The notes beneath the pieces are model-generated. The model saw only the letters and a program-made list of their open reading frames with translations, had not been told where the DNA came from and ran no database searches. Below, in pieces: positions 11,966 to 26,195 of a stretch of DNA of 41,351 nucleotides. How positions within the stretch are numbered: position 1 is the first letter of the stretch; every line of letters begins with the position of its first letter. Source of the stretch: an uncultured Brachyspira sp. (GTDB lineage: Bacteria > Spirochaetota > Brachyspiria > Brachyspirales > Brachyspiraceae); the NCBI RefSeq assembly GCF_944388875.1, contig NZ_CALXKQ010000024.1, positions 1 to 41,351 of the forward strand, in the 5' to 3' direction. The translations under genes and the position numbers were made by a program.

Positions 11966-12442
11966 TTATGATTTAATTTTCTCTTTATATATGAGTGTAT
12001 ATATGTATCTTTTGCAAGATAATAATTTATTTATGAATTCTCTTAAATCATATTTTATATTATTATTATCTATTTTAATTTTAATAGATAAATTTTCATA
12101 AGAATTCATATTATCAAAAAAAGTTTCATGATTTAATTCTTTTCTATTTTCTTTATCAAATAAAGTAAGTAATTCTCTTATATTTTTATTTTTTGCACTT
12201 ATGAATGTTTCAAAATAAAAATTATCATCTTTTAATATATTTATATCATATACAATATTAAATATATATTTTTCAATTTCATCAAATTCTTTCAATATCA
12301 TATTTAAATATTGATATGATAATCTTTTACTTGGAAATTTACTTGTTACAGTATAATTATATATTATAGTTCCAATCAAAGTTATTAATGAAATAACTAA
12401 AGAAATTATAGATATTATTACTTCTATATTAGATATTTTCAT
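11966..12442 (-). CDS. Small membrane protein of the STAS-GHKL gene set
   Basis: A 158-aa protein not assigned to a family. One N-terminal hydrophobic segment (about residues 8-30, IIVSLVISLITLIGTII-like) is followed by a helical, charged cytoplasmic or periplasmic domain rich in Asn, Lys and Ile. Its ATG overlaps the stop codon of the upstream gene (ATGA), with no Shine-Dalgarno, so translation is probably coupled. It is the last gene of a three-gene set with a STAS-like protein and a GHKL ATPase, and could be their membrane partner or effector. Confidence 0.7.
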   Translation of the reverse strand: MKISNIEVIISIISLVISLITLIGTIIYNYTVTSKFPSKRLSYQYLNMILKEFDEIEKYIFNIVYDINILKDDNFYFETFISAKNKNIRELLTLFDKENRKELNHETFFDNMNSYENLSIKIKIDNNNIKYDLREFINKLLSCKRYIYTLIYKEKIKS

Positions 12443-12777
12443 TTTTTTATTAAGTTATTGGCTTTTTCCATAAACCCTTTTATATGTTTTATTAAAAATT
12501 TATCATCTGAACATTCAAATGTAATTTTTTTATTAATTTCATCTAATGTATAATATTTATTTATAATCAAACCAGCAAATGCTTCATCCCAAAAAGATGG
12601 TCCTATACCATCCAACTTATCAAGGTTAATAGTTATTTTATCATATTTATTTAAAGATGGTATTAAACAATCCTCTCTAAAAACTTCTCCTGATACATCA
12701 CTATCAGTTCTATATCTGCCAAAAGGAGAAGGACTAAAATCTTTATATAAAACTATATATTCTTTTATCAATTTCAT
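12439..12777 (-). CDS. STAS-like protein (DUF4325 type)
   Basis: A 112-aa protein resembling the STAS-like DUF4325 domain: RTDSDVSGEVFREDCLIPSL, then NLDKLDGIGPSFWDEAFAGL, with a Ser-Phe at the position where STAS domains carry the regulatory Ser. STAS proteins bind GHKL kinases or NTPs in partner-switching systems. A strong site AGGAGG lies inside the end of the upstream ATPase gene, whose stop is 3 bp away, and the next gene overlaps by 4 bp, so the three are a coupled operon. The pairing with a GHKL ATPase supports the call. Confidence 0.78.
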   Translation of the reverse strand: MKLIKEYIVLYKDFSPSPFGRYRTDSDVSGEVFREDCLIPSLNKYDKITINLDKLDGIGPSFWDEAFAGLIINKYYTLDEINKKITFECSDDKFLIKHIKGFMEKANNLIKK

Positions 12778-12780
12778 TAA

Positions 12781-13899
12781 TTATTCCTCCTCATATAATG
12801 TTTCATCTATATCTATTTCAGATTTTATACAACCATTCCATGAAATAAGTGTACCTTGAAGATTATAGTCTAATAATTTTGATTCAATATCATCACTATT
12901 TTTTGTATACTTATAATAACCTTTTCTGCTAATTATTACAAGTTCTCCATTATCTGATTTTTTAGCATATTTTTTAATAGACTTTAATCCTTTGCCTCTA
13001 TTTTCTAATTTTGTTGATGATTCACTTGTTTCTACCGCGATACGGATTTTTTCTGCATCATTTTTATTGAAAATAACATACCTTTTTAAATCTAGTGTTT
13101 TAGGTATTGTTTTCCCTTGGTCATAAATTATAATTTTCATATTATTATCATTTATATTTATATATCCTAATATCCACCATTTTTTTAATTTATATATAGA
13201 GTTGTAGATAAAGTCATCAGGATAAGCATGATGATGCGTATTTAATATAGCCTCTGTTATACCAACTTTAAGGGTTTTCTTTCCATTTATACTATTTTCA
13301 TTAATTAAACTTTCAATTTCATTTACAATCTGCAATTTACGCCCTTCATTACCACTAGTTCCTGATTTAAATTTTAAATATCTTATAGTATTATTATTGT
13401 TAGGTGTTATATATCCTTTTTCTTTCCTTGATAATTTTATATCTAAAAAATCATACATACCTATATCATTAAATATGGTTTTAATTTCATTATTCCATTT
13501 ATTGAAATCATAAACTCCAATTCTGGTTTTATGTAAAGTACAAAGTCTATCTAATTCAGATACCAATACTAATGCTGCTTCTGGTGTTATATATGTGAGG
13601 TATTTCATATTTATAAACAATCTTTTTTTATTATCAGATATTTCTCTTATTTTATTAAAAAAGACTAATGTTTCACAAGTATTCTCATCAAATGATAAAA
13701 CTTTAGGGATATCTATTTCTAATTTATCTTTTCTTTTATGTCTGCTCTTTTTATATATACTCCCAGTAGCAACCCTCCTTTTTCTTTTTTCCTTTAATTT
13801 ATATATAAATTTTTTAATTGTATGTTTTTTATGTAATAATTTCTTATAGAATTTTTTATGTTTTCTATTTCTTTTAATTAAAAAAGGCTTTTTATTCAT
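12781..13899 (-). CDS. STAS-GHKL ATPase with basic N terminus
   Basis: A 372-aa protein. Residues 1-60 are nearly half Lys/Arg/His and could bind nucleic acid. Residues about 65-155 look like a STAS-type alpha/beta domain (RLFINMKYLTYITPEAALVL). Residues about 185-350 are a GHKL (HATPase) domain: N box EAILNTHHHAY (216-226), G1 region IIYDQGKTIP (Asp260, Gly262) and G2 motif NRGKGLKSIKKY (300-311). No His kinase dimerisation domain is seen, so it fits an RsbW-like kinase or ATP switch rather than a two-component sensor. Its promoter lies inside the end of terL and predicts a leaderless mRNA. Confidence 0.8.
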   Translation of the reverse strand: MNKKPFLIKRNRKHKKFYKKLLHKKHTIKKFIYKLKEKRKRRVATGSIYKKSRHKRKDKLEIDIPKVLSFDENTCETLVFFNKIREISDNKKRLFINMKYLTYITPEAALVLVSELDRLCTLHKTRIGVYDFNKWNNEIKTIFNDIGMYDFLDIKLSRKEKGYITPNNNNTIRYLKFKSGTSGNEGRKLQIVNEIESLINENSINGKKTLKVGITEAILNTHHHAYPDDFIYNSIYKLKKWWILGYININDNNMKIIIYDQGKTIPKTLDLKRYVIFNKNDAEKIRIAVETSESSTKLENRGKGLKSIKKYAKKSDNGELVIISRKGYYKYTKNSDDIESKLLDYNLQGTLISWNGCIKSEIDIDETLYEEE

Positions 13900-13937: not shown

Positions 13938-15308
13938 TTATTCTCCAAAAATAGCATTAACTAAATTCATTTTATCATCATTTTCTTCATTTATTATTTC
14001 TTCAATACCAAAGAATATCAAACTAGATAAAGCATCTGGAAAATCTAAATAGCTGAATATATCTCCTTTAATATTGCTTCCATTAAGAGAATCATCGAAA
14101 TTTAATAATTGTTTAAGTGCTATATATCCGCGTCCATTATTAGTTTTAAGCCATTTATCTGTATCTGTGCTTTCTGGTATATACTGCCAGCTTTTAGGAA
14201 AATATACTTTATCATATATTAAATAGCTTGCATTGACTATACGTTCTGCTTTATTTTTATGAACATAAAAAGGAATTACTTCAAAATGTTTTTCTAATCT
14301 TTTTACTAATTCCTTCTGAGCAAAGTTGCTTTCGCATAATACTTTTTTTATTTTTTTATCTATTAAGAAATTGATTATACTTTCATCAGTGGTAGAGTTT
14401 TCATCATTACGCATAAGTCCTGAATCTATTAAATAAATATCTTCTTCTACCTGAGTGTATATTATGACAGAGGTAAAGCAGTTATATTCTCCGAATGCTG
14501 GATCAACTACGGCTTTATGTTCACCTGAATTGATTTTATCTATATTTTCTTTTTTATTATCATCATAGAATTTTAATTTAGAATATAAGAAAATTTTTCC
14601 CTGTTTATTTTTTATTTTACCAAGCCAAATATGCTCATACATTTTAGGCATTATTTTTAGAGTTGAAAGTCTTGATTTATTTAATATATCGCTGAAATAA
14701 TAGTTACCGTCATAGTTTATGAAAGTTATTAAAATATTATTGTCTTCATATTCTTTATAATTATATTTGTTATTATTTTTATCAGTGTATATTTTATTTT
14801 CTAATTTAAACTTGCTTACAGTTTTGTAAATAAAATCCGTTTCAAATCTAGGATTAAATGCAATCCATATTTCACTTTTTTCAGCACGTATTGAAGGCTC
14901 TAATATTTCATAGCTTCTTTGCGTGAGAGTTTGTCCTTCCTCTATGAAGCATATTTTTACATTGTATATTGATTTAATCTCTTCAATGGAGCATTCTCTT
15001 ATGCCTAAAAATATAAATTTGCAGTTGGTAATTTTATTTATGATTTCATTTCTTTTGATTATAAAAAAACTTTCAAGCTTTAATTCTTTTATGATGCTTA
15101 TTAGAAGGGGGTATGTTGAATAGGCTATTGATTTTTGAATTTCTCTTGAACATAGTATAACGCCTTTAACTTCAAAACTTTTTGCTATTAGAATGCGGGC
15201 AATAGATTCGCTTTTTCCTCCGCCGCGTCCCCCATAAGCTATTTTTAATCTCTTTTGCATATACGCCCATTTTTCAAAAGGTTTTAATATATTGAACTTT
15301 ATATCCAT
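13938..15308 (-). CDS. terL: Phage-type terminase large subunit
   Basis: A 456-aa terminase. The ATPase domain has Walker A GGRGGGKS (26-33) and Walker B ICFIEE (119-124); IAFNPR at about 149-154 is the coupling region. The nuclease domain shows acidic residues in VVDPAFG (Asp269), LCESN (Glu326) and DFPDALSSL (Asp425), the three-acid RNase H-like set. It packages DNA into procapsids and cuts it. I start at the ATG at 15308, which has GGAG 10 nt upstream, instead of a TTG at 15323. All key residues are intact. No portal or capsid gene follows. Confidence 0.92.
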   Translation of the reverse strand: MDIKFNILKPFEKWAYMQKRLKIAYGGRGGGKSESIARILIAKSFEVKGVILCSREIQKSIAYSTYPLLISIIKELKLESFFIIKRNEIINKITNCKFIFLGIRECSIEEIKSIYNVKICFIEEGQTLTQRSYEILEPSIRAEKSEIWIAFNPRFETDFIYKTVSKFKLENKIYTDKNNNKYNYKEYEDNNILITFINYDGNYYFSDILNKSRLSTLKIMPKMYEHIWLGKIKNKQGKIFLYSKLKFYDDNKKENIDKINSGEHKAVVDPAFGEYNCFTSVIIYTQVEEDIYLIDSGLMRNDENSTTDESIINFLIDKKIKKVLCESNFAQKELVKRLEKHFEVIPFYVHKNKAERIVNASYLIYDKVYFPKSWQYIPESTDTDKWLKTNNGRGYIALKQLLNFDDSLNGSNIKGDIFSYLDFPDALSSLIFFGIEEIINEENDDKMNLVNAIFGE

Positions 15309-15335
15309 TATTATTTTCTCCAAATAAAATTATTT

Positions 15336-15791
15336 TTAATTATCAAATCCGACTCTTATATTAATTTTATTTTCTTCTTCTTTTAGTTTTCTTTTTTCAA
15401 GCCTTTTAGATTTTCTTGTTTTTACAAGCTCTAAAAATACTATAATAGCTCTTTCGCTTGGAGGATTATATTTATAAACTGTTCTTTTTATAAATGATTC
15501 TTTTCCGTCTTTATCGGTTTTTATTTCTTTTATTGTGTCTTTAGTATAATAACCTAAAGCCTTTTTTATCAGAGCATTTTCTATTTTTATTTTGGCATCT
15601 TTAAAATATTCATCTTTCGCCTTTCTTATTTTTTTTGCTAAACTTTTCTTATATTTTCTGCTTGATTTGTTAATATATTCTTTTAACTCATCATAGCTGA
15701 TATTTAAAGTTCTGCTTAAATGCTCAAATGTAGGATTTTCTTTTTTTATTAGATTATAAATAGAATCTTCAAGCTTTTTTGTATATTTCAT
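15336..15791 (-). CDS. terS: Phage-type terminase small subunit
   Basis: A 151-aa basic protein directly upstream of terL. It has an N-terminal helix-turn-helix (FEHLSRTLNISYDELKEYIN, about 22-41), a helical oligomerisation region and the family-like ALIKKALGYYTKD…KYNPPSERAIIVFLEL segment. TerS rings recognise the DNA to be packaged and load TerL. AGGCGG precedes the ATG. It is divergent from the MerR-like/TPR genes, with promoters in the shared 120-bp gap. Confidence 0.82.
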   Translation of the reverse strand: MKYTKKLEDSIYNLIKKENPTFEHLSRTLNISYDELKEYINKSSRKYKKSLAKKIRKAKDEYFKDAKIKIENALIKKALGYYTKDTIKEIKTDKDGKESFIKRTVYKYNPPSERAIIVFLELVKTRKSKRLEKRKLKEEENKINIRVGFDN

Positions 15792-15912: not shown

Positions 15913-16179
15913 ATGTATGTAAGAAGAATATTTTAGTTCTGTGAATTAGTTTTTAATAATGATATTACAGACGTAAATATAAAACAATTTTTATTAGCAA
16001 TAATAGGAAGCATTATAAAAAGTATAAATATAGAAAAAAGAGAATATTATATTTATAATGATAAATATATACTTAATTCATTAAAGGATATTATAGAAAA
16101 TAAAGGCTATAAAAAGGTTTATATTATATCAAAAGTATCAGGGCATCAATTAAATACAAGAAAAGATAAGCCTTATAAT
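15913..16179 (+). pseudogene. Interrupted N-terminal part of the 658-aa MerR-like gene
   Basis: In the same frame as the following gene, codons are open from 15937 to 16179 and read as ordinary protein (…KQFLLAIIGSIIKSINIEK…GYKKVYIISKVSGHQL…), but contain no ATG, GTG or TTG. An ATG at 15913 in that frame is followed by seven codons and a TAG at 15934-15936. Another ATG (15864) opens 15 codons in a different frame, after the duplicated promoter block. The original N terminus therefore seems to be broken by a stop or a frameshift. Confidence 0.6.
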
Positions 16180-18156
16180 TTGAATGAAGTTAATATAATC
16201 CGCAAAGAAAAAGAAGATGAAGAAGATATTTTTATTTATGATATGGCAGATAATGCCCCAAAAGAAATTGATATAGAACATGTATATTCAATAACTCATG
16301 GTCTAATGATGAATTGGATTGACCCTATAGTGTTTTTGAGAATAGGGGTGTTTTTAGATTTATTTGAATACTCATGCAATAAACCTATACCTTCAGGTGG
16401 AGGTTTAGATAATAAATTGTGTATTTTTATTCCGAACCCTAAAAAATTTAATTTAGATAAAATGAAAAAGAGAATACAAAATTATTATGATAAATCTATT
16501 TTTCCTGCATATAGAATTTATTTAAAACTTTCTAAAGAATATGAACTTTTTTATAGCCAAAAGCATTTATTAATTTATGATGAAATATATCAACTTGAAA
16601 AATTAAAATTGGATGTAAAGCAGATAGAGGATTTAGTTAATAATAAGGATTTTAAATCAAAAAATAAAACAATAATAAGAAGAAAAATATTAGAAAAAAG
16701 AATAAGACTTATAGAACAGCTTGCAGACTCTTATGAAGATGAAGAATTAAAAAGAATTTTAGGTGCTATTCGTCTTTCATTGGATTATAGTATATTAATA
16801 AAAATAGGAGATATTATAGAGTTAATAATATTATACTCCAGAAAAAATAAAATATCAGTAGATGATGATAAAGCTTTTTATTATTTGATTTTTAAAATTA
16901 AACATTTAATATTTGACAATATTCCAAGAATTGTATCCTATGATGAAGGCGATAAAATAGAGGATTATAATATTATATTAAAACTTTATTTAGATAAATA
17001 TAAAGAGATGAAAGATAGAAATAAAGAATCATTGGATAAAGAGTATAATAGTGAAGATTGTATAAGATACGGATATGATAATTTAAATCATGATGATTAT
17101 TTAATTAATGAAGAGAAGCTAAGCGAAATAAATGTATTAAACAGAGCAGGTTATTTTTATAATTTATTTTTGAAATCCGATTCATACGAATATAAGTACA
17201 GACAAAGCGATGAATATATATATTCATTAAGTAATAATAAATATCATGAATATATGGATTTGCTTTTTTATTTGCTAGATTTAAGAATAGATTATAATAT
17301 AAAAATTATTCACGGCGATGAAGAAGTTAATAATGATATAATTTCTATTTTAGAAGATATTAATGCTGTTCAAAAAATAGCTGAGAGATTCTATTTTTTA
17401 GGCTGTTTTAATGATACTAATAAATATAAAAAAACTATGATGAGCAAAATAAACAGCATAAAAATAAAATTTGCTTTTAAATATATAGAAGAGATAAAAG
17501 CTCATATTAATAATGAAAACAGAAAATATAGAGAATATGATGAGGCATTTAATTATATAATAGATTTTATAGAGTTTACTAAAATACGTCAGTCAAAAAA
17601 AGAATATTATAATGAAAAGCATTATTTAGATTATGATTATTATTACAGCGATGAATATAAAAACTTTAAAAAAATAGATGCAGAAATTTTTGAGGCTGAT
17701 GATAATGATTTAAAAATTATAGAAAAGGTGAGAAAAAGTTTTTTGGAAAGAGGTATGGAAGCATGGAATTATTTTTCTGAAACAGGATATAAAGATATAA
17801 AAGAAAATTATAAAGAAGATAGAAGAATATTTTTTGAGAACAATTATAAAATAATATATAAAAAAGCCAAAGGAGACGGAATTAAAAAAATGAATTACAT
17901 AAAATCCATCCCTACTAATAATGTTATTGAAAATGAGGATGATTTTATTGATGTTTATTTTTTTAATTACATGAATTATATATATCAGAAGAAATATTAT
18001 ATTGATTTTTTTAAGGTAAACAAAATAGATTTAAAAAAATTGTATATAGAAAGAACGGATATATTTGAAGAACATGATGAAAATAATCCATTTGGTTTTA
18101 GGATTTCTTCTGTTGATCTTGGCGGAACTTATTCTTATATTGATATTGAAGATTAA
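16180..18156 (+). CDS. MerR-like winged-helix protein, 658 aa, N terminus damaged
   Basis: A large, Asn/Lys/Tyr/Asp-rich cytoplasmic protein. Residues about 53-155 carry the shared signature of this locus: LRIGVFLDLFE, then a long insert, then IFPAYR and a helix YDEIYQLEKLKLDVKQIEDLV, which I read as a divergent MerR-type winged helix. The remaining 500 residues are helical and not recognised. The TTG at 16180 has no ribosome binding site; the frame stays open 81 codons upstream. The first in-frame ATG is at 16243. It may be a decaying gene or be made from a start I cannot see. Confidence 0.6.
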   Translation: MNEVNIIRKEKEDEEDIFIYDMADNAPKEIDIEHVYSITHGLMMNWIDPIVFLRIGVFLDLFEYSCNKPIPSGGGLDNKLCIFIPNPKKFNLDKMKKRIQNYYDKSIFPAYRIYLKLSKEYELFYSQKHLLIYDEIYQLEKLKLDVKQIEDLVNNKDFKSKNKTIIRRKILEKRIRLIEQLADSYEDEELKRILGAIRLSLDYSILIKIGDIIELIILYSRKNKISVDDDKAFYYLIFKIKHLIFDNIPRIVSYDEGDKIEDYNIILKLYLDKYKEMKDRNKESLDKEYNSEDCIRYGYDNLNHDDYLINEEKLSEINVLNRAGYFYNLFLKSDSYEYKYRQSDEYIYSLSNNKYHEYMDLLFYLLDLRIDYNIKIIHGDEEVNNDIISILEDINAVQKIAERFYFLGCFNDTNKYKKTMMSKINSIKIKFAFKYIEEIKAHINNENRKYREYDEAFNYIIDFIEFTKIRQSKKEYYNEKHYLDYDYYYSDEYKNFKKIDAEIFEADDNDLKIIEKVRKSFLERGMEAWNYFSETGYKDIKENYKEDRRIFFENNYKIIYKKAKGDGIKKMNYIKSIPTNNVIENEDDFIDVYFFNYMNYIYQKKYYIDFFKVNKIDLKKLYIERTDIFEEHDENNPFGFRISSVDLGGTYSYIDIED

Positions 18157-18166
18157 ATTATACTGT

Positions 18167-18195
18167 TTGATTAAAAAAATAATTCATAATATAAT
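18167..18195 (+). promoter_or_regulatory. Promoter of the TPR gene
   Basis: TTGATT (18167-18172), 17 bp, TATAAT (18190-18195), in the 70-bp gap before the TPR gene. The sequence after it repeats the block at 15811-15853. Confidence 0.75.
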
Positions 18196-18226
18196 CTAAA
18201 AAATATAAGTATTTATAAGGGTTGTT

Positions 18227-20137
18227 ATGAGTTTGATCGATTTGGCGGCAGAAGCGTATCAAAATAAATTGTATAATTTTTCTATAAAGCTTATTAATAA
18301 ATATCTTAAAAATACAAAAAATAAAAAGTTAGAAAAAGCCTATTATTACAGAGCATTAAGCAGAGAAAAATTAAAGCATTATAAAAAGGCATTGGAAGAT
18401 TATAATAGTCTGCTTAAAATAATTCATCACAGCCCAAAAATATATTCAAAAATATCTATTATCAAAATAAAACTTTTTAAAAGCTGTCATAATATTATAG
18501 ATGATACTAAATTCTTCAATAATGATATAATAGAATATTTGGAGAAATCTATAAAATTAAAAACTGAAAACAAAAATATTTATTATTACAGATATATATT
18601 TAAAAATATTTCACTGCTACGTTATGAAATAAATGAAAAAGAAAAAGAAATTATTTTAAATAAACTTAAAAATAATTTTCCAAAAATGTATAAATATTTA
18701 GGTTATGAATATAAAGATGAGAGATATTTAAAAAAAGCCATTGAGTTTGATGATAAGGATTATATATCATATTATAATATGGCTGTTATAAATTATAAAA
18801 ATATAGATAGTTCTATTAAATATTTAGAAAAGTCAATAAATATAAATCCAAATTATTATAAGGCTTATAATGCTCTTGCTTTATTATTGCTTGAAAAAGA
18901 AAAGTCTATAGATAATTATAAAAAGGCTTTAGAGTATTTGGATAAGGCTATTGAATTAAATAAATATTATGTTCAGGGATTTTTTAACAGGCATAAAATA
19001 AAAAAAGAATTGCTGAGTTTAATTGAAGCAGATAAAAAATACGATGAAGAATATAAAAATAAATTAAAAGATGAAATAACAAAAGACTTAAAAAATGCTT
19101 ATGAGCTTTCTAATTATGAAGCAAAAAAATCTATTAAGTATTATAAAGTTTTCGGCACAGAAGATGATATTATAAAAAACTTATCAAATGCTCAATTATC
19201 CTTTCCTAAATCAAAAGATGATAATGTTTTAATTTATATAAAGACCGCTGATAATGTTTCCAGTTTCTTTGAAAAAATAGAAAATTATAATGAGGCTTTA
19301 AGTTTAGATTCCAACTATTATGAGGCTTATAATTTAAGGGGCTTTGCAAAATATAATCTGGGCTTTTATGATGATGCATTGATTGATTTTGATAAGGCAA
19401 TAGAAATTAATAAAAATTATGCCGATGCCTATTACAATAAGGGAAAGGTTTATTTATCTAAAAAGAAATACAATGAAGCTATAGAATATTTTACAAAGTC
19501 AAAAGAACTTTATAAAATGAATGATGATAAGCATGAATTAAACAGAATAAAGCCTGATCATTATATTGCTTGGTGCTATTATTATTTGGGAGAGGACATT
19601 GATAAAATATTTAATGAGAATATAAAATCAAATAATGAAGGACTTTCTGAAGTTTATTACAACAGAGGAAAATTAAGATATCAGCTAAAAGAATATGAAA
19701 AGGCTGCAGAAGATTTTGATAACATAAAAGATGAAACTGATAAAAATTATAAAAAGTCATTATTTTATAATGTTATATGCAAAAACGAATTAAGCGGTTT
19801 GACAGAGGATGAAAATATAAAACTTCATAATAAACTAATAATGATGCTTGCACTTGCCAAAGAATATAAAAAAGATAATGATTTTAGAAGTGCATTTGAT
19901 ATTTATGAAAAAGTGATTAACAATACTATTGAAATTAATAATAATAATAATGCAGAGCGTATGTTTTTCTTTTATTTGTTTAGGGCAGAAGCAAAGATTG
20001 AAATATTTAACTCTTCATTTGATTATGATAATTATTTTGAAGAGGCAAAAGAGGATATTAAACTTGCCTATCAGTATGCGAATACCGATAAGAAAAAAGA
20101 ATATATTGATATTCAGAGGAAAGAATTTAATTTATGA
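18227..20137 (+). CDS. TPR-repeat protein, 636 aa
   Basis: A long array of tetratricopeptide-type helical repeats. Typical units are YYKAYNALALLLLEKEK…YKKALEYLDKAIELN (near 210-245) and YYEAYNLRGFAKYNLGFYDDALIDFDKAIEIN (near 365-395), followed by YADAYYNKGKVYLSKKKY. No signal peptide or membrane segment is seen, so it is a cytoplasmic scaffold or partner-binding protein. AAGGG precedes the ATG. Its last codon overlaps the ATG of the following MerR-like gene (ATGA), so the two are probably translated together and may interact. Confidence 0.85.
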   Translation: MSLIDLAAEAYQNKLYNFSIKLINKYLKNTKNKKLEKAYYYRALSREKLKHYKKALEDYNSLLKIIHHSPKIYSKISIIKIKLFKSCHNIIDDTKFFNNDIIEYLEKSIKLKTENKNIYYYRYIFKNISLLRYEINEKEKEIILNKLKNNFPKMYKYLGYEYKDERYLKKAIEFDDKDYISYYNMAVINYKNIDSSIKYLEKSININPNYYKAYNALALLLLEKEKSIDNYKKALEYLDKAIELNKYYVQGFFNRHKIKKELLSLIEADKKYDEEYKNKLKDEITKDLKNAYELSNYEAKKSIKYYKVFGTEDDIIKNLSNAQLSFPKSKDDNVLIYIKTADNVSSFFEKIENYNEALSLDSNYYEAYNLRGFAKYNLGFYDDALIDFDKAIEINKNYADAYYNKGKVYLSKKKYNEAIEYFTKSKELYKMNDDKHELNRIKPDHYIAWCYYYLGEDIDKIFNENIKSNNEGLSEVYYNRGKLRYQLKEYEKAAEDFDNIKDETDKNYKKSLFYNVICKNELSGLTEDENIKLHNKLIMMLALAKEYKKDNDFRSAFDIYEKVINNTIEINNNNNAERMFFFYLFRAEAKIEIFNSSFDYDNYFEEAKEDIKLAYQYANTDKKKEYIDIQRKEFNL

Positions 20138-21477
20138 AAGATATAAATAAAGATAATTTAGAATTTAATTTTGATGATGATAAAAGCGGCAAATATATAA
20201 AAAAAGAAATTCCTTCTTTGATTGAAATAAAAAAAAAGACAGAAAATATATTTTTAATAGAAGCTGTTTCAGGAAGAGAAAAAAAATCAAATGGAAATTA
20301 TAAAAAAAGGAAGATTAAATTTTTAGAAGATAATATTTATGATTTTTTTGATGATAAGAAAGAATATAAAAATATATTAGATGATTTTAATTTTGATGAT
20401 GAGAGTATTTATTTTTTCAGCATACAGGCCTTTTTAGATAAATACTTTAAAAATCACAGCAAAGATAATGAAAATTTAAAAGATAATATGCAGCAGGCTT
20501 ATGACAGAGAAAATATACTCCCTTCATACAATATTAAATATAACAAATCAAATAGTAACGATACAAAAACTAGAATATACACAAAAGATCATTATCCGCT
20601 TTTAAATGAAATATTGAGGCTGGAAAAAGAAGAAAAGAATTATGAAGAGATAAGGTCTGCTTTATACGAAGATTTAAAAGAAGTATATAAAAAAGAAGAG
20701 TATAATGAAAAAATAGATGATGATAATTTGGAAGGGTATATAAAAAATATATGCTCAAAATTTGATGATGATAAACTTTATGATGAAAATGATGACAACA
20801 TTATTCACCCTATTATATATTATCATCAGAAATTATATTATATGCCATTTAAAATTTATGAAAATTTTATAAGAAACAAAATAAATATAAAAAAATATAA
20901 AGCTCTTATCAATTTTAGCAAGGAAAGTTTTGATTTAATCAATAAAAATAATAAAGATGAAATAGATTATATTTATAATAGATGTAATAATTATGGTTTA
21001 GAAAGGCATGATAAAGTTTTATTTGAAAATATAATTTTTGATAAAATAGATTTTAATATAAAAGAAACTTATGAAAAATGTATAACTCTAAATGATAAGA
21101 TAATATCATTTCAATTGAGTAATAATATTTATATAAAGAACTATAATCCTACTGCAGCAGAAGAGATTTTCAATATTCTTTATTTTACAGATTACATAGA
21201 TGAACACAAGTATATAGAATTAAAAGATAAAATGTCAAAGTTAAAAAGTTTAGAAAAAAATAATAAAATAATAGAATGCAGTATAACTTCAGAAGATGAA
21301 AAAATAATTTATAATACGGCTAAAGCATTTAAATTTAAAAAAATGGGTTATATAAGTCTTTATAAGGTAATTAAACTTAACTATGACAACAGCAATTTAG
21401 AAAATACATTCAAAGAAATTATAGATTTAATGAAAAACTATGATAAAATATATAATTTAGCTAAATCTGCCCAATAA
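20134..21477 (+). CDS. MerR-like winged-helix protein, 447 aa
   Basis: A cytoplasmic protein, very rich in Asp, Lys and Asn. Residues about 93-178 hold the local signature: FFSIQAFLDKYF, ILPSYN, TRIYTKDHYPLLNEILRLE and a final helix YEEIRSAL, matching the order helix-turn-helix, wing, helix of MerR domains. The C-terminal 270 residues are helical and unassigned. It overlaps the TPR gene by 4 bp. Here the usual Arg of the PAYR motif is Asn. Function inferred only as DNA binding. Confidence 0.72.
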   Translation: MKDINKDNLEFNFDDDKSGKYIKKEIPSLIEIKKKTENIFLIEAVSGREKKSNGNYKKRKIKFLEDNIYDFFDDKKEYKNILDDFNFDDESIYFFSIQAFLDKYFKNHSKDNENLKDNMQQAYDRENILPSYNIKYNKSNSNDTKTRIYTKDHYPLLNEILRLEKEEKNYEEIRSALYEDLKEVYKKEEYNEKIDDDNLEGYIKNICSKFDDDKLYDENDDNIIHPIIYYHQKLYYMPFKIYENFIRNKINIKKYKALINFSKESFDLINKNNKDEIDYIYNRCNNYGLERHDKVLFENIIFDKIDFNIKETYEKCITLNDKIISFQLSNNIYIKNYNPTAAEEIFNILYFTDYIDEHKYIELKDKMSKLKSLEKNNKIIECSITSEDEKIIYNTAKAFKFKKMGYISLYKVIKLNYDNSNLENTFKEIIDLMKNYDKIYNLAKSAQ

Positions 21478-22015
21478 TTTTATTTTACATATAATACATT
21501 TTTTGAGATATTTTTTATACTCCAAAAATACTTCAAAAATATTTCAATACATTAATCTTTCTATAATGATTTAAACTAACCATGGGGATATAATATGATA
21601 CATACATATTAATGACTATATATATAATAATACTGCCATAAAAGATACATTATTATTATCATATAGATAAATATAACATAAGGTATATATGAGGGTATTT
21701 ATAAAAAATATATAAATATACAAATTAATTTTTTTTCTTATGTTTGGTAGAATATTTTAATCTGATTTAATAAGAAATTTATTAATTTTATGACATCCCT
21801 CAGAGGGTATCAAGTGAGTTTTTTATGTTATTTGCTATTATATATATGTATTAAGATATTACTGGAGGAATATATGAGTTATATTATATGTTTAATTATA
21901 AAGGAAAGTCTTATTCCAATATAGTTAAATTACTATTTGTTATTCAATTATAATAATGATTAAAGCCAAATTTTAATATATTAATATACAGTAAAATTTT
22001 TGCTGGAGGTGTATT
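21478..22015. other. Intergenic region with short ribosome-binding-site-led ORFs
   Basis: No long gene. Several Shine-Dalgarno-like sites lead very short ORFs: AAGG before ATG at 21689 (8 codons), and GGAGGA before ATG at 21874 (16 codons, MSYIICLIIKESLIPI). A small hairpin ATCCCTCAGAGGGTAT lies near 21795. The spacing before the frameshifted Smr gene suggests decayed genes or leader peptides; I cannot tell which. Confidence 0.4.
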
Positions 22016-22376
22016 ATGCCTAAAATAAAATTATATTACTTAAATTTAGGAGGTATTATGAAGAAAGATAGAATGATTAAGCGTAAAATATACCGTGATA
22101 ACGGAAATTATGTTATAGATTTACATAACTTCCACAGTAAGCGAGGCAATAGATTTTATTGATCATACAATACTTCATTATTACTATATCAATAATATTA
22201 ACTCTACTTTAGAAATAATATATGGAAGGGGACTTCATAACGGAATAGGACATTCTGTATTAAAAGCTCATGTTATAAACAGAATTTATGAATTAAAAAA
22301 GAAAGGTCATGTTCTTAAATGGAAGCAGAACAAATGTAAAAAAGGCGGGGCTATAATTGTATATGTAAATGTATGA
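22016..22376 (+). pseudogene. Smr-domain protein gene with +1 frameshift
   Basis: Reading from ATG 22058 (ribosome binding site AGGAGGT) gives MKKDRMIKRKIYRDNGNY then VIDLHNF, and would stop at 22160. Skipping one base at about 22133 continues as TVSEAIDFIDHTILHYYY, then LEIIYGRGLHNGIGHSVLKAHV and GGAIIVYVNV, ending at 22376. Together these form an Smr domain: the DLH motif, the GxGLHxxxGxSVLK motif and the closing strand. Smr domains are small nucleic-acid endonucleases or binders. An in-frame ATG at 22016 with GGAGGTG is an alternative start. It is either inactivated, frameshifted by design, or a sequence error. Confidence 0.82.
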
Positions 22377-22412
22377 TTATAGAGATTATATAAATATTTT
22401 AAGGAGAGAAAA

Positions 22413-23120
22413 ATGGCTAGAAGGGATAAAGATAATAAAGTATATGATAATAGTAAAAGGGATGTTAATGAAAAAGATATCATTTACTATATAGCAGGCA
22501 GAGAGTGCGTACTTCCATGCAAAGCGGATGCTGATAAAAATTCTTTTATGCAGATAGGAGATTTTTTTAATGAACTTATAAGGGATAAAATAATAAATGA
22601 CGGAGATATTGATTTAAAAGTTTTAAGAAAATGGGATGAAAAAGAAATACTTCCAGCATACAGAAAGGCAAAGGGACCTGTAAGAACGGATACAAGATTT
22701 TATACTAAAAATCATAAATATATGGTTAAGGAGATATTAAGGCTTAAGAGAATAGGTTTTGATATATCCGACATAGAGAGAATATTATTTTTTAATGAAA
22801 GCTTGGAAATTGTTCTTTTGGATAAGTCTATAAAAAATAAAGAAGATTACAGCAAAATGAAAAGAACTATAAACAATATGGAGGATATGGAAGCTAAATT
22901 GATAACTCCTTCAATAGAAACTGTAAAGGAAATCATTAATTTAGATAAATACAATATTAACAGCAAAAGCAAAAAGTTAAAAAAAGAATATGCCTCCATA
23001 ATTGCTTTTATAGATATAGTAAAAAAGGCATGCTCATCATACAATGGGAATTATTTTAATAAATCTGATTTTAAGGAGGATATGATTGATATAATAAAAA
23101 GATATAAGAAATTACTTTAA
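22413..23120 (+). CDS. MerR-like winged-helix protein, 235 aa
   Basis: A compact member of the locus family. Residues 46-128 read as a MerR-type DNA-binding domain: MQIGDFFNELI, VLRKWDEKEILPAYR, TDTRFYTKNHKYMVKEILRLKRIGFDISDIERILF, corresponding to helix 1-turn, the RxWxxxGLLP turn, the RYY wing and the EIxxIL helix. The C-terminal half is helical (YSKMKRTINNMEDMEAKL) and may mediate dimerisation. AAGGAGAG precedes the ATG. The paralogue 23242-23937 is closely related and has the same layout. Confidence 0.82.
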   Translation: MARRDKDNKVYDNSKRDVNEKDIIYYIAGRECVLPCKADADKNSFMQIGDFFNELIRDKIINDGDIDLKVLRKWDEKEILPAYRKAKGPVRTDTRFYTKNHKYMVKEILRLKRIGFDISDIERILFFNESLEIVLLDKSIKNKEDYSKMKRTINNMEDMEAKLITPSIETVKEIINLDKYNINSKSKKLKKEYASIIAFIDIVKKACSSYNGNYFNKSDFKEDMIDIIKRYKKLL

Positions 23121-23241
23121 TTCTATTATATATATATTAGGGGATATAGCAGCAAATATCTATGTTTTTTATTTTCATGCTATGTACAAAAAACCTATAT
23201 TGTTTTATATATAAATTAATAATAAGTTACAGGTATCATAT

Positions 23242-23937
23242 ATGAAAAGCTATAAAAAAATAGATATGAATAATGATAATGCTTACTATTTTATAAATAA
23301 AGTTAAGCATACATTAACTTCTAAAAATAATATTAATAAAAATGATTTAATGTCTATAGGAGAGTTTATAGATTTGCTTAAATGCGAAGGCATATCAGAT
23401 GTTACATTTAAAAATATGAGAGATTGGGATAATAAGGGCATACTTCCAGCATACAGAGTTCCTCAGGGCAAGTCTAGAGAGGATGTTAGATACTACAGTA
23501 ATGAGCATTTAAATATGGTAAAAGAGATATTATATTTAAAATCTGTAGGTTTAGAGCTTCCAGACATTTATAAAATCATGTTTGAAAATGAAGATGCAAA
23601 TATTATATTTTTATATAAATCTGTAAAAAATTTGGAGGATTTCAAAAGAATGAAAGATGTTATAAAAAATATTGATGAAATGGAAAAAGAATTGATAGTT
23701 CCTATAATAAAGAATATTAAAAATGAGTTTATAAAAAATAATGATAAGATTGATGAAAGCTATATAAAAAAACTTATATTCAATTATAAGAATGCTGATT
23801 TGGACAGCGAAGATATTACTATGCTTTCTTTTATACTTATGCTTTTAAGTGCTTTTTCATCATACAATGAGGAGGATAATTCTTTTGATAAAAAGAAATT
23901 CTCTGATTTTATGACAGATATAATAAGCAAATATTAA
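23242..23937 (+). CDS. MerR-like winged-helix protein, 231 aa
   Basis: A paralogue of the preceding gene. Residues 37-114: MSIGEFIDLLK, FKNMRDWDNKGILPAYR, EDVRYYSNEHLNMVKEILYLKSVGLELPDIYKIMF. The WDNKGILPAYR and VRYYS elements are the clearest MerR-like ones in the window. The C-terminal region (FKRMKDVIKNIDEMEKEL … SSYNEEDNSFDKKKF) parallels that of the neighbour. It is transcribed in the same direction and ends before a strong terminator. Probable DNA-binding regulator; target unknown. Confidence 0.84.
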   Translation: MKSYKKIDMNNDNAYYFINKVKHTLTSKNNINKNDLMSIGEFIDLLKCEGISDVTFKNMRDWDNKGILPAYRVPQGKSREDVRYYSNEHLNMVKEILYLKSVGLELPDIYKIMFENEDANIIFLYKSVKNLEDFKRMKDVIKNIDEMEKELIVPIIKNIKNEFIKNNDKIDESYIKKLIFNYKNADLDSEDITMLSFILMLLSAFSSYNEEDNSFDKKKFSDFMTDIISKY

Positions 23938-23990
23938 AAATCAAGGCAATTAAACCCTAATCAGAAAAAATAACATAATATTTATTTTAT

Positions 23991-24024
23991 CTCCTAATGA
24001 ATATAACTTCATTAGGAGTTTTTT
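23991..24024 (+). terminator. Rho-independent terminator after the 231-aa MerR-like gene
   Basis: CTCCTAATGAA (23991-24001) pairs perfectly with TTCATTAGGAG (24008-24018) over 11 bp, followed by six T residues. Confidence 0.95.
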
Positions 24025-24025
24025 A

Positions 24026-24053
24026 TTGTATATGTTTTTATTTTTGATATAAT
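24026..24053 (+). promoter_or_regulatory. Promoter of the 711-aa MerR-like gene, leaderless arrangement
   Basis: TTGTAT (24026-24031), 16 bp, TATAAT (24048-24053), then exactly 6 nt to the ATG at 24060. No Shine-Dalgarno is present. It begins immediately after the terminator of the previous gene, so this is an independent transcript. Confidence 0.78.
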
Positions 24054-24059
24054 AAAAAC

Positions 24060-26195
24060 ATGAAAATAAATTTAATAAATAATGATATAAAATACATAAT
24101 ACAAACTGCTGATAATAGTTTTGATGATAATTATATTCTTCCATCATTAAGAACTTTATTAGAAAAATTAGCAAAATTAGAAAAGTCAGAAGAGGTAAAA
24201 AAGTCAGAAGAAGTAGAAAAAACAAAACCTGAATATGATGAAAATATAACAATATATTTAGTTTCAAAAAATTCAGGAAATACTACTCAGTTAAAAAAAG
24301 GAAATTATAAATATATAGAGATAAAGTTTATAGGCAATGAATATAATAAATATAAAGAAATTAAATATTATAAATATGAAAATAATATATTAAAATTTGC
24401 AGATAAAAATAAATTATGCTTTTTTGAAATAGGGGCATTTTTGGATTTATTTAATATATTAAAATCATTAGAAAATAAAAATATTGGTAGTTTTCTTATA
24501 TACGAATTAATAAATAATATCATTAACAAAAATAAATTGATTTATTTAAAAAAATATTATGGGCAAAATAATAAAACAATAGAAGAATATAAAGGCATAA
24601 ATTATGATGAAATAGAGTTAATTATAAAAGAAAGAGAATTAAAAAGATTAAAAAAGATTCTTCAGGAGTATTATGATTATTCGGATAATTCTAAAGCAGG
24701 AATACTTCCTTCGTACAGATTAGAAAAACATTCAGATGCTTCTAAAAAAAGCACAAGATATTATACTTTGGAATCTTTAATCATTTTAGATGAGATACTC
24801 AGAATATATAAAAATATTAAAGAGGATAGTTTTTATTTTATAAGAAATATAAGCTATTTAGAAGATACCAATGATATAAAAGATGAATTATTTGACAAGA
24901 GAAAAGTTTTAAAGGCATTGAAAAATACTAACTTTATTAAAAGTAAATTGTATATAGAAAATATTTTAGATGTACTGGATTATAATAATTCTGATAAAGA
25001 ATTTAAAAGCAGAATAGAAAATGTAAAAAACTCTGAATTAAAAAAATTATTTGACAGTGAAGATATAGAAAATATAAATAATCTCAATAATATTGATGAA
25101 CGTAAAAATTATATAGAAGATTATATTTTCATATTGTTTAATAATATAAAAATAATGATTGATGAATATAAAAATATAAAAGATGATGATGAAAAAACGG
25201 AATTAGAAAATAAAATTATAGATTATGATTTGCATTTCTTTTATTTTAAATTTGTATTGGATTATATGTTTCTGTATAAAAAAGAACTTGATGTTTATAA
25301 TGATTTATATGATTTATACAGATATAAATATTTTTATTTGAAAAAAGATAATATAGATTTTTTTGAAAGTATATATAAAAAACATGATTTAATAAATTAT
25401 AAATATCCTTTTAATTTCTACATATCTATTTATGAAGATTATATATATAAAAACTATGATGATGAAAATATAGAAGATAAATATAAACTTATATTAAAAG
25501 AAAAAGAAGATTTTATAATACTTTCAGAAGATAATTATGATTATTTGTATTTGTATTATGATTTTGTATTTTTTCTTTTGTATTATACTATAATAAATAA
25601 TGAGCATGTGATTGAAAGATTTAAAAGAGGTTCTTTCAAATCAGAATATACTAAAGATAATTTAAGGGTGCTTGATTATTATTCTATATTAGCTACAGAT
25701 GAATTATTAAATGGGGTAAAAAATAATATTAAAAAGATTAAAATTCTATTGGATATAATTTACTTTTCTAATATAAAAAAAGAAAGCATTAAAAATTTGA
25801 GAGATGATATAATAAATTTAAATAAAAAAACAGATTATATTGATAATATTATTAATGATTATGATATTACTGATACTTTGGAGTATTTAGAAAAAGATGA
25901 ATATATTAATAAAAATAAAGAAATAGAAAAAATAGAATCTGTAAATTTTCCTTTTAATAAATATGAATGCAGGAAGTATTTTGATGAGAATATATCAAGA
26001 ATAATGAAAATATATAATTATAAATCAAGAACAGATGAAACATTCAGACTGTTTTTTAATTTTGCAGTATATGAATTCAATATTGATAAAACTAATTTTG
26101 AAATGATTTATAAACATATAGATAAAATACTATTTAGTATTGAAAAGGTTAATAAATTATGCTCTTATAATAATTTTATTCTAAGCTGTAAGTAG
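24060..26195 (+). CDS. MerR-like winged-helix protein, 711 aa
   Basis: The largest member of the family in the window. It has an N-terminal charged repeat (EKSEEVKKSEEVEKTK, about 41-56), then the locus signature split by an insert: FFEIGAFLDLFN (121-132), about 80 extra residues, GILPSYR (214-220), STRYYTLESLIILDEILRIY (231-250). The C-terminal 450 residues are helical, Asn/Lys/Tyr/Asp-rich and not recognised; no transmembrane segment is convincing. It has its own promoter and appears to be a leaderless mRNA. I infer DNA binding by the MerR-like part only. Confidence 0.72.
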   Translation: MKINLINNDIKYIIQTADNSFDDNYILPSLRTLLEKLAKLEKSEEVKKSEEVEKTKPEYDENITIYLVSKNSGNTTQLKKGNYKYIEIKFIGNEYNKYKEIKYYKYENNILKFADKNKLCFFEIGAFLDLFNILKSLENKNIGSFLIYELINNIINKNKLIYLKKYYGQNNKTIEEYKGINYDEIELIIKERELKRLKKILQEYYDYSDNSKAGILPSYRLEKHSDASKKSTRYYTLESLIILDEILRIYKNIKEDSFYFIRNISYLEDTNDIKDELFDKRKVLKALKNTNFIKSKLYIENILDVLDYNNSDKEFKSRIENVKNSELKKLFDSEDIENINNLNNIDERKNYIEDYIFILFNNIKIMIDEYKNIKDDDEKTELENKIIDYDLHFFYFKFVLDYMFLYKKELDVYNDLYDLYRYKYFYLKKDNIDFFESIYKKHDLINYKYPFNFYISIYEDYIYKNYDDENIEDKYKLILKEKEDFIILSEDNYDYLYLYYDFVFFLLYYTIINNEHVIERFKRGSFKSEYTKDNLRVLDYYSILATDELLNGVKNNIKKIKILLDIIYFSNIKKESIKNLRDDIINLNKKTDYIDNIINDYDITDTLEYLEKDEYINKNKEIEKIESVNFPFNKYECRKYFDENISRIMKIYNYKSRTDETFRLFFNFAVYEFNIDKTNFEMIYKHIDKILFSIEKVNKLCSYNNFILSCK

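Follow-up and report, generated by a model that had tools for sequence, protein, structure and literature searches.

Five clustered genes in a 41,351-nucleotide stretch of DNA from an uncultured Brachyspira sp. (contig NZ_CALXKQ010000024.1 of assembly GCF_944388875.1; the whole stretch is called the window here) encode proteins of 231, 235, 447, 658 and 711 amino acids (aa) which, judged by profile comparison, are paralogues of one family with a common ancestry. The two small proteins are called S1 and S2 (together, S) and the larger ones M, L3 and L2, in order of length. Database and genome searches indicate that this MerR-like family is real, undescribed and confined to a single genus. One of its members, L3, lies head-to-head with genes for a terminase which is the putative terminase of the Brachyspira gene transfer agent (GTA). 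We tentatively favour, at somewhat less than even chances, the interpretation that these proteins form a Brachyspira-restricted family of MerR-fold regulators and that L3 regulates the GTA packaging genes locally.

Separate alignments were built from Brachyspira genomes for S (A1) and for the 711-aa L2 (A2), 658-aa L3 (A3) and 447-aa M (A4) types. Profile-profile comparison with hhalign gave E-values of 5e-8 for S with M, 2e-7 for S with L3 and 5e-6 for S with L2, while L2 matched L3 with 1e-26 over 445 columns and M with 3e-11. The best E-values against S from 100 column-shuffled versions of each alignment were 0.043 (A2), 0.052 (A3) and 0.0095 (A4). The observed values lie far below these controls, and the similarity therefore exceeds what chance and AT-rich composition would produce. 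A reading of the sequence alone (the sequence-only reading) had proposed that the five genes share one family. This is borne out by their open reading frames (ORFs), which lie where it placed them and all on the + strand, and by the significant similarity of the large members to the small ones. Its assignment of the 231- and 235-aa proteins to ordinary MerR domains is also upheld, since these two, alone among the five, match Pfam MerR_1. Its ordered sequence signature survives in a looser form: a related block is present in all five, but M has SIQAF for IG.F and ILPSYN for ..YR, and L3 has LFYS for TRxYT and EIYQL for EIL.L. In L2, ILPSYR and RYYTLES are invariant (11 sequences).

Structural models of the 231-aa and 711-aa proteins were made with AlphaFold2 (AF2). 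The predicted local distance difference test score (pLDDT) of the S1 model is 88–95 over residues 11–70 and 81–120. The model includes a beta-hairpin (14–25), a winged helix (about 35–117) and a helical C-terminal part. Its closest structural matches are MtaN (Z 9.5), SoxR (Z 8.8; 1.6 Å over 70 residues) and BmrR (Z 8.7–8.8), superposing at 1.6–2 Å over about 70 residues, and we are confident from this model that the small members have a MerR winged helix. The helices at 119–163, where a MerR dimerising coiled coil would be expected, have mostly pLDDT 56–71 in what is a monomer model. In a profile search of PDB sequences, S retrieves MerR proteins (E = 2.7e-6), L3 weakly retrieves GlnR (E = 0.022), and L2 and M have no match. 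S resembles MtaN, BmrR, SoxR, GlnR and RacA in its winged-helix fold, in the order recognition helix, wing, helix and in an aromatic-arginine wing. It differs from these MerR regulators in having a hairpin ahead of the winged helix and no recognised metal, drug or coiled-coil sensor architecture. The large members differ further in a long insert and a helical extension of several hundred residues, and a MerR-type operator was not found. They are homologous to S by profile comparison, and their winged-helix fold is putative.

Among 393 Spirochaetota genomes, including 26 of Brachyspira, strong matches to the family occur only in Brachyspira, where S is present in 19 of the 26. Spread beyond this genus was rejected, the other Spirochaetota hits being generic MerR proteins. 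A phage origin was likewise rejected, with neither 50,697 phage records nor IMG/VR yielding a relative, as was membership of a known defence system (PADLOC models match 0 of 10 proteins). The small members match only phrog_11671, of unknown function, in PHROGs and only sub-threshold MerR models in NCBIfam; the large members have no significant match in Pfam, PHROGs, NCBIfam or PADLOC. Genus-wide profile searches indicate that the five window proteins are the entire family complement of this genome.

Mapping the genes of the window and of the retrieved loci reveals three recurrent modules: a TPR gene with M (TPR-M), L2-Smr-S, and L3 beside terminase genes. All are joined in the window, in the order TerL, TerS, L3, TPR, M, broken Smr, S, S, L2; the 636-aa TPR gene and the frameshifted Smr-domain gene are additions between the family genes that the sequence-only reading had not named. 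The TPR-M pair is kept in L061, L067, L068, L086, L087, L089, L094, L096 and L097, and in most genomes it is flanked by ispG (GcpE) on one side and the cdaA-ybbR genes on the other. The L2-Smr-S module is found near pheA/aroK and a NadR-like gene. Its Smr partner is a protein of 91–130 aa in which the DLH and GRGLH motifs are kept. It resembles Smr (small MutS-related) proteins in its Pfam Smr match and its DLH and GxGxH motifs, and differs in being a stand-alone form paired with MerR-like genes. TPR-M and Smr-S(-L2) are also joined in G014, G017 and G011. A 1307-aa TPR protein (L067 4142-8065) was considered as a possible MerR-TPR fusion linking the parts: its N-terminus shows weak ILnPYK..Y..LDEI similarity to the M/L2 block (E = 5e-4 to 9e-3), which is suggestive and was not accepted.

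For the closest pairs, pairwise dN/dS is 0.05–0.12 for TerL, 0.08–0.3 for TerS, mostly 0.1–0.3 for S, 0.12–0.39 for the TPR protein, 0.12–0.33 for M, 0.19–0.42 for L3 and 0.22–0.48 for L2. Values well below 1 in intact pairs point to purifying selection and argue that the genes are functional. Frameshifted or stop-ridden family copies also occur in several genomes, and the large members evolve fast.

In 11 genomes, the window genome G000 among them, L3 is next to TerL or TerS (G000, G002, G004, G008, G009, G010, G015, G016, G018, G020 and G022, with two copies each in G008 and G010). All 13 gene pairs are head-to-head. The repeated terminase neighbourhood anticipated by the sequence-only reading thus exists across the genus for the L3 subfamily. 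The wider tie which it drew between the other four members and the terminase fails, most of their relatives being at the fixed housekeeping loci described above. The 11 genomes share ancestry and are not independent events. L3 falls into three deep clades, each beside a terminase gene (L3a by TerL, L3b and L3c by TerS), and this association of three separate paralogous clades is a stronger argument than the genome count, given the kinship of the genomes. The window L3 is a long branch in the L3 tree and its placement is unsure.

In G002, terS is found in two halves at two places (L044 9483 and L056 5812), one by TerL and the other by L3; a rearrangement has its breakpoint within this gene.

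TerL is present in 23 of the 26 Brachyspira genomes, in one copy and at 69–91% identity. It is orthologous to BHWA1_01969, the TerL previously proposed for the Brachyspira GTA, a role not experimentally validated (PMC9662315), and we consider the window gene a putative BhGTA/VSH-1 (Brachygtaviriformidae) TerL. The terminase is therefore not the orphan it had first been taken for, and this is strengthened by a promoter-like element common to GTA operons. The tandem CTTATAAT element reads CTTATAATnaCTTATAwTTTTTGnT and then TATA; it is located some 30–100 bp upstream of TerL and TerS throughout the genus. A scan of the window genome allowing up to three mismatches gave seven sites, against one in a reversed-pattern control. 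One of the seven is between TerS and L3. Three others are on contig C4, within a cluster of phage-like head and tail genes that encodes tape-measure-like, tail-tube-like and weakly major-head-like proteins. In the orthologous clusters of G009, G010, G014 and G025 the first promoter of the head operon has the element, as does the second promoter in G009 and G025. A second operon, which opens with a protein of 260–266 aa, also has the tandem element. In G010 this operon extends to a lysin of GH19 type, and the head operon is preceded by two genes for methyl-accepting chemotaxis proteins, an arrangement that fits the published VSH-1 layout with its lysis genes and mcpB/mcpC (PMC4955376). The element occurs in 23 of the 26 genomes; it is absent from G001 and G003, both without TerL, and from G019, where the sequence has diverged. 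That it is common to the terminase genes and to the GTA head and tail/lysis operons supports GTA membership independently of sequence phylogeny, and this putative promoter element supports a link between TerS/TerL and the BhGTA structural operons. We found no published description of it in the literature searched.

These observations suggest how the family might work. S would be a MerR winged helix followed by a helical C-terminal part without a known sensor domain. M, L2 and L3 would keep the recognition-helix/wing/helix block, separated by the long insert from helix 1, and their fast-evolving, all-helical C-terminal region might serve in oligomerisation or partner contact. Members would operate in modules, with the Smr-domain protein (L2-Smr-S) or the TPR protein (TPR-M). 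L3 would most likely regulate the divergent terminase promoter region, and hence DNA packaging by the gene transfer agent; we count the presence of the GTA element within the head-to-head region in favour of L3 as a local regulator. In a bolder version, which we find rather doubtful, L3-type proteins would be dedicated and rapidly diversifying MerR-fold regulators of GTA packaging genes, forming with their paralogues and the Smr nuclease a modular network unlike known GTA control. Of the undescribed regulatory or DNA-handling system proposed by the sequence-only reading, the local expansion of undescribed MerR-like proteins stands; the system as such is unproven, and regulation is plausible for L3.

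Several observations weigh against L3 as a GTA regulator, or against a regulatory role of the locus more generally. TerL and TerS persist without any family member in G013 and G019 and with remnants only in G006. The family is thus not found wherever the GTA terminase is, and cannot be required for the terminase or the GTA. In G005, G006 and G007, L3 or its remnant is 14–41 kb from TerL. The window L3 has no ATG start, the ATG of a relative being ATA here, and the window Smr gene carries a 1-bp insertion near 22132 compared with two relatives (in the closest relatives it is intact, 119 aa). The sole conserved element found near L3 is a direct repeat with 10-bp spacing and not a MerR-type dyad, and apart from a diverged copy before the window TPR gene the element is not seen at S, L2, M or Smr loci. 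The element as operator of the whole MerR-like family was accordingly rejected, being missing at S/L2/M loci and present in family-less genomes. Finally, the AF2 model of the 711-aa protein has a mean pLDDT of 49, and the winged helix expected in all five proteins is confident for the 231-aa protein but not here; the predicted order of helix, long insert, helix, two short strands and helix in L2 fits a MerR-like reading and falls short of proof.

The rival that survives best, in our view still rather unlikely, is a fast-evolving and dispensable conflict or immunity system in which MerR-like DNA binders, TPR proteins and an endonuclease-like Smr partner would be directed against phages or other mobile DNA, with the terminase locus as one inherited insertion hotspot. 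The birth-and-death pattern of the family, in which several genomes have duplicated, truncated or stop-rich copies, would be expected of such a system, as would its patchy presence and the dN/dS values, highest in L2 and L3. The Smr proteins also retain their DLH and GRGLH motifs and most members are away from the terminase. Against this, no PADLOC model matches any member, no relatives are found in phage records or viral contigs, two of the modules occupy fixed housekeeping loci (ispG/cdaA and pheA-aroK) rather than mobile islands, and L3, when adjacent to a terminase gene, is always divergent to it. We consider it unlikely, and slightly more so, that the large members do not bind DNA and that their conserved block is a relic or has been put to new use in a structural helical protein. 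The wing arginine is missing from L3 (LFYS for TRYYT) and the IG.F helix start from M, no confident fold was obtained, and the L2 and M profiles do not match PDB sequences; yet the invariant ILPSYR and RYYTLES of L2 and the weak match of the L3 profile to GlnR speak against this reading. Finally, a DNA-handling accessory of GTA packaging, in which the MerR-like proteins would bind host DNA and recruit the Smr nuclease or the terminase there without transcriptional control, appears very improbable: L3, S and Smr are near TerS/TerL in G015, G000 and G002 and the Smr fold is a nuclease fold (Pfam), but genomes with TerL can do without the family, Smr-S pairs mostly occur at a different locus, and no promoter element is held in common with GTA genes.

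GafA and GafY/GafZ are activators of alphaproteobacterial GTAs, host-encoded regulators dedicated to a divided GTA genome. By analogy, L3 would act in a similar manner if it controls GTA genes; it differs in adjoining the terminase, and GafA is not known as a MerR-type protein. The MerR-like genes are also outside the described BhGTA/VSH-1 gene set. The regulation of the Brachyspira GTA and the genes it requires are an open question in the literature (PMC11841831). The locus offers candidates in the form of a regulator-like gene head-to-head with the terminase and a 25-bp element tying the terminase locus to the head and tail/lysis operons. The latter may be more immediately useful than the result concerning the MerR-like family. 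If the large proteins do have a MerR fold, its occurrence within proteins of 650–750 aa would widen the known range of architectures for this fold.

Table 1. Genes and promoter-like elements of the window, with element copies at other loci
Feature	Position	Strand	Evidence
TerL, terminase large subunit, putative BhGTA TerL	13938-15323	-	Pfam Terminase_3 6.3e-29; 23/26 Brachyspira genomes; PMC9662315
TerS, terminase small subunit	15336-15791	-	phrog_309 1.1e-5, phrog_23444 1.5e-4
Putative GTA-class promoter element CTTATAATTACTTATATTTTTTGATT, between TerS and L3	15828-15853	-	pattern and position weight matrix (PWM) scans, alignment
L3, 658-aa ORF	16180-18156 (TTG start 16180; frame open from 15937, up to 739 codons)	+	hhalign, start comparison
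Diverged second copy of TerS promoter element, between L3 and TPR gene	18194-18219	-	PWM score 19.6
TPR protein, 636 aa, recurrent partner of M	18227-20137	+	Pfam TPR_2 4e-20, synteny
M, 447-aa expanded member, downstream of TPR gene, 4-bp overlap	20134-21477	+	hhalign to S profile 5e-8
Smr-domain small gene, disrupted	about 22059-22376	+	orthologue L056 Pfam Smr 1.2e-7; DNA alignment; Smr-S adjacency at many loci
S2, small MerR-like protein, 235 aa	22413-23120	+	Pfam MerR_1 2.8e-4, S alignment, profile search
S1, small MerR-like protein, 231 aa	23242-23937	+	Pfam MerR_1 2.5e-8, AF2, SoxR structural match
L2, 711-aa expanded member	24060-26195	+	hhalign to S profile 5e-6; genus-wide profile search
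Tandem element copies at other loci	L105 16179, 16393, 18811; L106 about 49 bp upstream of 13441; L111-L116		

The diverged element copy in the gap between L3 and the TPR gene compares with a best score of 13.9 in a reversed-sequence control of the window. It belongs to a stretch of roughly 50 bp (18180-18226) that is a diverged copy of the TerS promoter in the same orientation as the original, and this points to an earlier duplication or insertion here. This genome has two more near-perfect element copies, at G000:C3:171985 (L107 8986) and G000:C14:45810 (L108 8811). They have similar flanks, with no obvious gene close downstream, and possibly correspond to members of the same regulon that are small RNAs or short peptides.

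Immediately downstream of TerL on the same strand (11966-13899, -) are genes for three proteins: one of 372 aa, weakly similar to HATPase/RsbW (phrog_3364, 3.6e-50), a STAS-like DUF4325 protein of 112 aa and one of 158 aa. The group has the look of a partner-switch pair; none of the relatives examined showed it next to TerL. Inverted repeats of the form CGCACGG...CCGTGCG recur upstream of TerL in L046, L047, L048 and L075 and may be generic Brachyspira repeats.

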